From: Blastococcus saxobsidens
GTDB taxonomy: Bacteria > Actinomycetota > Actinomycetes > Mycobacteriales > Geodermatophilaceae
Length of the DNA: 64,000 nt
Assembly (NCBI RefSeq): GCF_002938435.1
Contig: NZ_POQT01000018.1
Location: 1 to 64,000, forward strand
Direction: 5' to 3'
Shown one piece after another: positions 52,410-53,069 of the stretch. How positions within the stretch are numbered: position 1 is the stretch's first letter; every line of letters starts with the position of its first letter. A program made the translations under genes and the position numbers. The notes beneath the pieces are model-generated. The model was not told the DNA's origin, did not search any database, and saw only the letters and a program-made list of their open reading frames with translations.

Positions 52410-53069
52410 ATGGACAGCTCCGACCTGCTCGCGCTGCGGACCGACGACCGCGCGGCCCTGCTCCTCGTCGGCCTGCGGGGCGACTGGTAGCCCTACTGCT
52501 GCGCCCAGGCGGTCCGTCTGGCCCAGTCGTCGTCCCGGCTCGCTGCTGCGGGTACCGAGGTCGTGCTCGCCTCGGTCGATCCACCGGAGGTGCAGCTGGC
52601 CTTCGACCACACCTGGCGCGTCCCCTACCGCTGGGTGAGCGATCCCGACGGGTCCCGGCTGGCCCGTCCGCTGGACGCCTGGGACCAGGACGCCTCGATC
52701 TTCCGGCCGGTGGTCGTGGCGGTGGGGCCGGACGGCGGCGAGGTGTTCCGCGAGCGCTCCCGCGACTTCACCGACCGCCCCGACGACGAGCCGATCCTGA
52801 CCGCCGTCGAGCGGCTCGGCCTCCCGGCGCTGCCCGAGCCGGGACCGTGGACCCTGGACGGCGTCGACCCGCGGCCGTCCGAACGCGCGTTCACGCCGGC
52901 CTCGTTCATCCCCTACTTCCGCGCGATCAAGTTCAACACCCTCGCGCTGAGCGAGCGGATGGTCGACGAGCGGGACCGGGACGAGGTGCTGACCGAGAAC
53001 ACCATGGCAATCTCCTTCCTCGACGCGTTCGACGCCTGGCGCGCCGAGCACCCACCGCGCGGGCAGTGA
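52410..53069 (+). CDS. Candidate selenoprotein: redoxin-like protein with UAG-encoded selenocysteine
   Basis: 219 residues if TAG at 52488-52490 is read through. The frame is open on both sides, 26 codons before and 192 after, with uniform high-GC codon use. The start of the fold, ALLLVGLRGDW, a strand then the active-site helix, is followed by TAG-P-Y-C-C and AQAVRLAQSSSRLAAAG, as in AhpC/TSA-type redoxins where the motif is W-C-P-Y-C. So TAG replaces the redox Cys (U27, with C30 and C31 as partners, a UxxC motif). Later parts include DPPEVQLAFDHT, RVPYRWVSDPDG and a C-terminal IPYFRAIKFNTLALSERM. Without readthrough only a 26-residue peptide would form. A nonsense pseudogene is possible but explains neither the exact position nor the hairpin that follows. 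The stop abuts the convergent DUF421 stop. Confidence 0.85.
52505..52521 (+). promoter_or_regulatory. SECIS-like hairpin downstream of the in-frame UAG
   Basis: CCAGGC pairs with GUCUGG (six pairs, one G-U) around the loop GGUCC. It begins 14 nt after the TAG, inside the coding frame. E. coli fdhF SECIS also has a short upper stem about 11 or more nt past the UGA with a GGUC apical loop that SelB binds. No bulged U was located with confidence. Confidence 0.6.

Follow-up and report, generated by a model that had tools for sequence, protein, structure and literature searches.

Background

Mukai and colleagues are said to have reported in 2016 that UAG encodes selenocysteine (Sec) in Geodermatophilus and Blastococcus, with a tRNA-Sec that has a CUA anticodon, UAG codons in formate dehydrogenase (FDH) and 75Se labelling. 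PMC5330540, citing its reference 56, describes three Geodermatophilaceae genomes that have tRNA-Sec(CUA) and use UAG in FDH and UGSC proteins; it also gives an AhpC of Blastococcus saxobsidens DD2 that has a Sec-TAG and a bSECIS. By this account, the precedent that the sequence-only reading of the present DNA had named for the two genera is real. That UAG and further codons serve for Sec in nature is restated in PMC10778597 and PMC8124441. The main text of a 2026 review (PMC13188914) mentions neither Blastococcus nor names in Geodermatophil-.

Genome G008 of the survey is very probably that of B. saxobsidens DD2. It has one match to the protein described here, 85% identical and with one TAG, and the DD2 UAG-Sec AhpC is very probably the orthologue of this gene.

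The reading frame and its in-frame TAG

The window, which is the whole 64,000 nt stretch of DNA analysed, has on its forward strand a frame of 220 codons (positions 52410–53069) with exactly one internal stop. The following features are found in it:

52410..53069, + strand: predicted selenoprotein gene, peroxiredoxin-like; reading through codon 27 gives 219 residues; terminated by TGA
52455..52736, + strand: AhpC/TSA domain, residues 16–109 (PF00578, 43.1 bits, cut-off 26)
52488..52490, + strand: TAG at codon 27, a predicted Sec codon that opens the U-x-x-C motif; TAG in 30/30 distinct family sequences
52497..52502, + strand: codons of Cys30 and Cys31, invariant in 18/18 aligned sequences
52563..53069, + strand: shortened 168 aa frame from a GTG, expected from standard annotation (P0002 and similar database entries)

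The TAG is in the context GLRGDW-U-PYCCAQAV. For Sec27 the likely partner is Cys30, on the evidence of that invariance and of profile alignments. Both the domain match and the fold place the protein among AhpC/TSA (peroxiredoxin-like) proteins; the comparison with known folds took in residues 1–139, and two C-terminal helices lie beyond. Against the SelL-related redox protein model NF040769 the score is 20.4 bits, below the curated cut-off of 120.

The sequence is conserved on both sides of the TAG. Values of dN/dS against the window gene are 0.15–0.34 in 10/10 pairs for codons 28–91. For the 26 codons before the TAG they are 0.03–0.51 in 8/10 pairs and above 1 in the other two, in a segment where changes are few. 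The sequence-only reading had proposed a single in-frame TAG at codon 27 (52488–52490), placed at the redox position of W-U-P-Y-C-C and flanked by coding sequence. The frame confirms the first point; the second agrees with the homologues described below, which have UAG, UGA or Cys in that column; and the third is borne out by the dN/dS values together with the unbroken matches of 28/30 orthologues.

A TetR regulator gene is upstream of the frame, and YetF-like, MarR and ABC transporter genes are downstream. Among 12 named loci, with flanks reaching 3 kb at most, the YetF-MarR-ABC run recurs in 4, thus no fixed partner gene was found. A search of plasmid records gave no relatives of the protein.

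Orthologues and the codon at the Sec site

The protein is matched in 41 of 112 Geodermatophilaceae genomes, with 30 orthologues and 11 weak, distant matches. In 28 of the orthologues the match is continuous and contains a single TAG; in the other two (G104 and G028) a frameshift after the TAG splits it. The codon at the Sec site is TAG in all 30 distinct family sequences, and also in named Blastococcus and Geodermatophilus records. Since 30 family orthologues are known and every distinct sequence has the codon at this site, the TAG of the window is not a chance occurrence.

The two split orthologues, L203/L048 in G104 (contig C79) and L204/L049 in G028 (contig C14), are from different genera, and both have one C less in the same CCC run. 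The missing C is at nt 17–19 after the Sec codon; its loss breaks the frame, the stem of the hairpin and its GGUC loop (see below) are unaffected, and the genes are otherwise intact. The frameshift, which counts against the proposed decoding of the TAG, may represent an assembly error, a recurrent loss or a case of frameshifting.

Outside the family the column has a different codon. A survey of 397 genomes of the order gave 27 matches, 26 from the family plus G133, which has TGA. In the phylum survey (396 genomes), 38 genomes besides that of the window have a relative; 29 of these loci were read and have TGA (25) or TGC (4) and no TAG. With G133 included, the Sec-site column outside the family is TGA in 26 and TGC (Cys) in 4 of the 30 sequences read.

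These comparisons bear on whether the UAG is simply a true stop, in which case the gene would be a pseudogene or would start at the internal GTG at 52563. The database entries are in fact shortened frames: among 120 listed of 138 database relatives, full-length entries are absent and query coverage is at most 84%, because the annotated frames are cut short, as is the frame that starts at GTG 52563. The complete protein is thereby lost from annotation. UAG also terminates some genes of the window, where 42 frames passing a codon-bias filter end in TGA (40), TAG (2) or TAA (0). However, a protein started at GTG 52563 would be without the redox motif, all 30 distinct sequences retain the 26 N-terminal codons together with the TAG and the codons of the active site, and relatives have TGA or Cys in the column. 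Termination at codon 27 is thus very improbable.

Among these 42 filtered frames UAG is used less often than UGA, the only other stop. When the window was scanned by codon bias for further frames with one TAG, a single candidate (8735, + strand) came up; the TAG already known at 52488 was missed, and the scan therefore has little power.

Selenocysteine machinery of the genome

Genome G000, to which the window belongs, is 4.52 Mb in 86 contigs. Two Rfam tRNA-Sec matches are above the cut-off; one of them is a tRNA-Ser, and the other is a real tRNA-Sec:

G000:C15:13444-13535: tRNA-Sec with anticodon CUA, full-length, long variable arm, 65.8 bits

The CUA copy is single, and the Rfam search shows no UCA copy in G000. 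Genes selA and selB follow the tRNA gene, and selD is just upstream on the opposite strand. NCBIfam scores are 415.1 for selA (cut-off 267.9), 386.8 for selD (cut-off 125) and 285.2 for selB (cut-off 242.25), the selB match spanning positions 2–338 of the 581 in the model. Both FDH genes of G000 have TAG at the Sec site, in the context ENQARI-U-HS. All the genes that the sequence-only reading proposed to look for (selA, selB, selD and a long-arm tRNA-Sec with CUA) are therefore present, and the single tRNA-Sec does not have the UCA anticodon that, as the only form, it had named as evidence to the contrary. Its assignment of the gene to a UAG-Sec system is supported by this set together with the TAG codons in FDH and in 30/30 orthologues.

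A CUA anticodon could in principle belong to a tRNA that inserts a different amino acid, either pyrrolysine or that of a suppressor tRNA, and ARAGORN does call this gene tRNA-Pyl. The variable arm of tRNA-Pyl consists of three nucleotides according to PMC7609411. The CUA tRNA does not have that form; it aligns from end to end with the Rfam tRNA-Sec model, its variable arm is long, and it adjoins selA and selB. The UGA-Sec or Cys seen in the column in relatives also speaks against a different amino acid, and such decoding is highly unlikely. A sequencing or assembly error at 52488 has a negligible probability, as the identical TAG is found in 29 other family sequences and in the named Blastococcus and Geodermatophilus records.

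Hairpin downstream of the TAG

Two features follow from the sequence around and after the codon:

52488..52530, + strand: likely SECIS, made up of the Sec codon and the stem-loop after it; frozen synonymous sites; fold of -15 kcal/mol
52505..52521, + strand: core hairpin CCAGGCG-GUC-CGUCUGG; GGUC at 52511–52514; the same 17 bases follow the TGA in G133

Codon usage in 28 orthologues shows a single codon at each of codons 29–35, 37 and 38, and two at codons 28 and 36. Synonymous entropy averages 0.16 bit over 11 codons of the 28–39 stretch, compared with 0.71 bit over 45 other codons of 2–90. This frozen stretch is a hairpin of 7 bp, CCAGGCG-GUC-CGYCUGG, and the sole change, C to U opposite a G, still pairs. 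Because the pairs are nearly invariant in the family, covariation says little. The single-sequence fold of the region is not significant (z of -0.72, with 47/200 shuffles equally good), so that the case consists of the frozen synonymous sites and a hairpin that survives the change of codon.

In E. coli, SelB binds GU in the loop of fdhF, at positions 23–24. The GGUC of the window gene is at nt 24–27 from the Sec codon and is in the same place in 19/26 TGA relatives and 1/4 Cys relatives; its absence at nt 24 from the other 7 TGA relatives counts against the proposed decoding. In FDH genes the GGUC is at nt 22–25. As judged by eye, both sides of the FDH stem change among family members, e.g., GUGCCC-GGUCU-GGGUGC compared with GUCCCC-GGUCU-GGGGAC. 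The downstream stem-loop is likely a SECIS, with predicted binding of SelB.

Anticodon and codon across the family and beyond

tRNA-Sec is found in 108/112 family genomes; the four without it are 72–82% complete. The 110 genes comprise 102 with CUA and 8 with UCA. Seven genomes (G066, G068, G069, G070, G072, G073 and G074) have UCA alone. Genera g5, g6 and g7 together have nine genomes, these seven plus G067 and G071, which are without a tRNA-Sec match. The remaining UCA gene is an additional copy in G058. With seven UCA genomes in three genera, the UGA/UAG boundary is inside the Geodermatophilaceae.

All 30 carriers of the peroxiredoxin-like gene have tRNA-Sec(CUA) and no UCA copy. Family FDH loci have TAG at the Sec site in 29/30 cases, and the remaining locus ends before the site. 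An FDH row of G079 listed with TGA begins beyond the Sec site and so says nothing on that site. A search for FDH in the nine genomes of g5–g7 gave no match.

The search for tRNA-Sec outside the family took in 37 of 39 genomes (the 38 from the phylum and G133), with G548 and G732 left out. It was found in 32 of the 37, and all 30 loci read have UCA. Five genomes have none. The relatives in two of these (G612 and G570) are without an in-frame stop; G776, G792 and G705, which are 77–88% complete, have a TGA relative and no tRNA-Sec found, a point against the proposed decoding. A second tRNA-Sec match in G605 is a tRNA-Ser. TAG thus occurs with CUA in the family and TGA with UCA outside it: the Sec-site codon goes with whichever anticodon the tRNA-Sec of the genome has.

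The actinobacterium G458 has two tRNA-Sec genes about 9 kb apart (C96:70099-70187 and 79295-79385), both UCA.

A SelA tree was made from loci that also contain selA; 64 loci were tried and gave 27 hits, of which two duplicates were removed. One branch (100/100) separates the 3 UCA rows from the 22 CUA rows of the 25. No selA came from the 30 loci outside the family, and with just three UCA rows and no outgroup the tree shows the UCA/CUA branch and not the direction of change.

A genome with two tRNA-Secs

G058 has one SelA and a resident tRNA-Sec(CUA) near it (G058:C11:15836-15927). A second tRNA-Sec, with UCA, is on contig C17 (locus L202:1169-2157). An AhpD-like frame lies about 310 nt from it; this has an internal TGA in the context RCFY-U-MESH (C-x-x-U), and after the TGA comes a stem-loop whose loop is GUU. 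AhpD-like relatives in 67 other family genomes have no in-frame stop. The G+C content in the first 18 kb of C17 is 0.61–0.73 per 2 kb, compared with 0.76 in the next 40 kb, and IS-type transposases are close by. Plasmid records matching the UCA piece number 54, none over more than 80% of the query, and the 10 matches listed are all within the IS portion, beyond about 6.9 kb. Plasmid relatives of the AhpD-like protein are found in 327 records, all less than 60% identical.

Tentatively, the selenoprotein genes of the family may have shifted from UGA to UAG with one anticodon change, the SECIS hairpins staying; G058 could later have gained a mobile tRNA-Sec(UCA) with an adjoining UGA selenoprotein gene, a single SelA serving both tRNA-Secs and both UAG and UGA being read as Sec. 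This history is possible rather than probable. The UCA locus may also represent an assembly join or a silent relic. If it is real and active, a G058 cell would have two Sec codons.

Proposed decoding and function

On sequence grounds, UAG codon 27 of the peroxiredoxin-like gene is predicted with very high confidence to be read as Sec by tRNA-Sec(CUA), which SelB would deliver at the likely SECIS hairpin. SelA would make Sec-tRNA-Sec(CUA), and SelB, bound to the hairpin loop, would outcompete release factor 1 at the codon. Sec27 would replace the first Cys of a thioredoxin-type CxxC, and Sec27-x-x-Cys30 would form a redox centre that reduces a peroxide or a disulphide. Why UAG was taken is a question this case raises; it ends just two of the filtered frames in the window.

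Comparison with known systems

The UAG-Sec system is already published and the orthologue of the window gene very probably is too; the gene therefore adds another example of a rare, known code variation. A literature search that had subscription papers largely outside its scope gave, in the texts available, no recognised report of a genome with both CUA and UCA tRNA-Secs or of the position of the switch in the family. New here are the family-wide count, the UCA/CUA boundary inside the family and the presence of both tRNA-Secs in G058.

The DD2 AhpC and the window gene have in common the bacterial family, the UAG Sec codon, tRNA-Sec(CUA), an AhpC-like protein and a predicted bSECIS; they come from different species. 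The system attributed to Mukai and colleagues resembles the window genome in its tRNA-Sec(CUA) and UAG codons in FDH; 75Se labelling is reported for theirs, whereas the window gene is known from its sequence. The redoxins of other actinobacteria, e.g., G133 of the same order, are from the same protein family and have the U-P-[YF]-C motif. They use UGA with tRNA-Sec(UCA), in contrast to UAG with CUA in the window genome, yet the 17-base hairpin of the G133 redoxin is identical to that of the window. This is a natural case of recoding in which the amino acid is kept, the codon goes from UGA to UAG and the anticodon of the tRNA shifts in step. Genomes with UAG/CUA and with UGA/UCA, together with the hairpin shared with G133, provide material on how a codon reassignment spreads across a set of genes.
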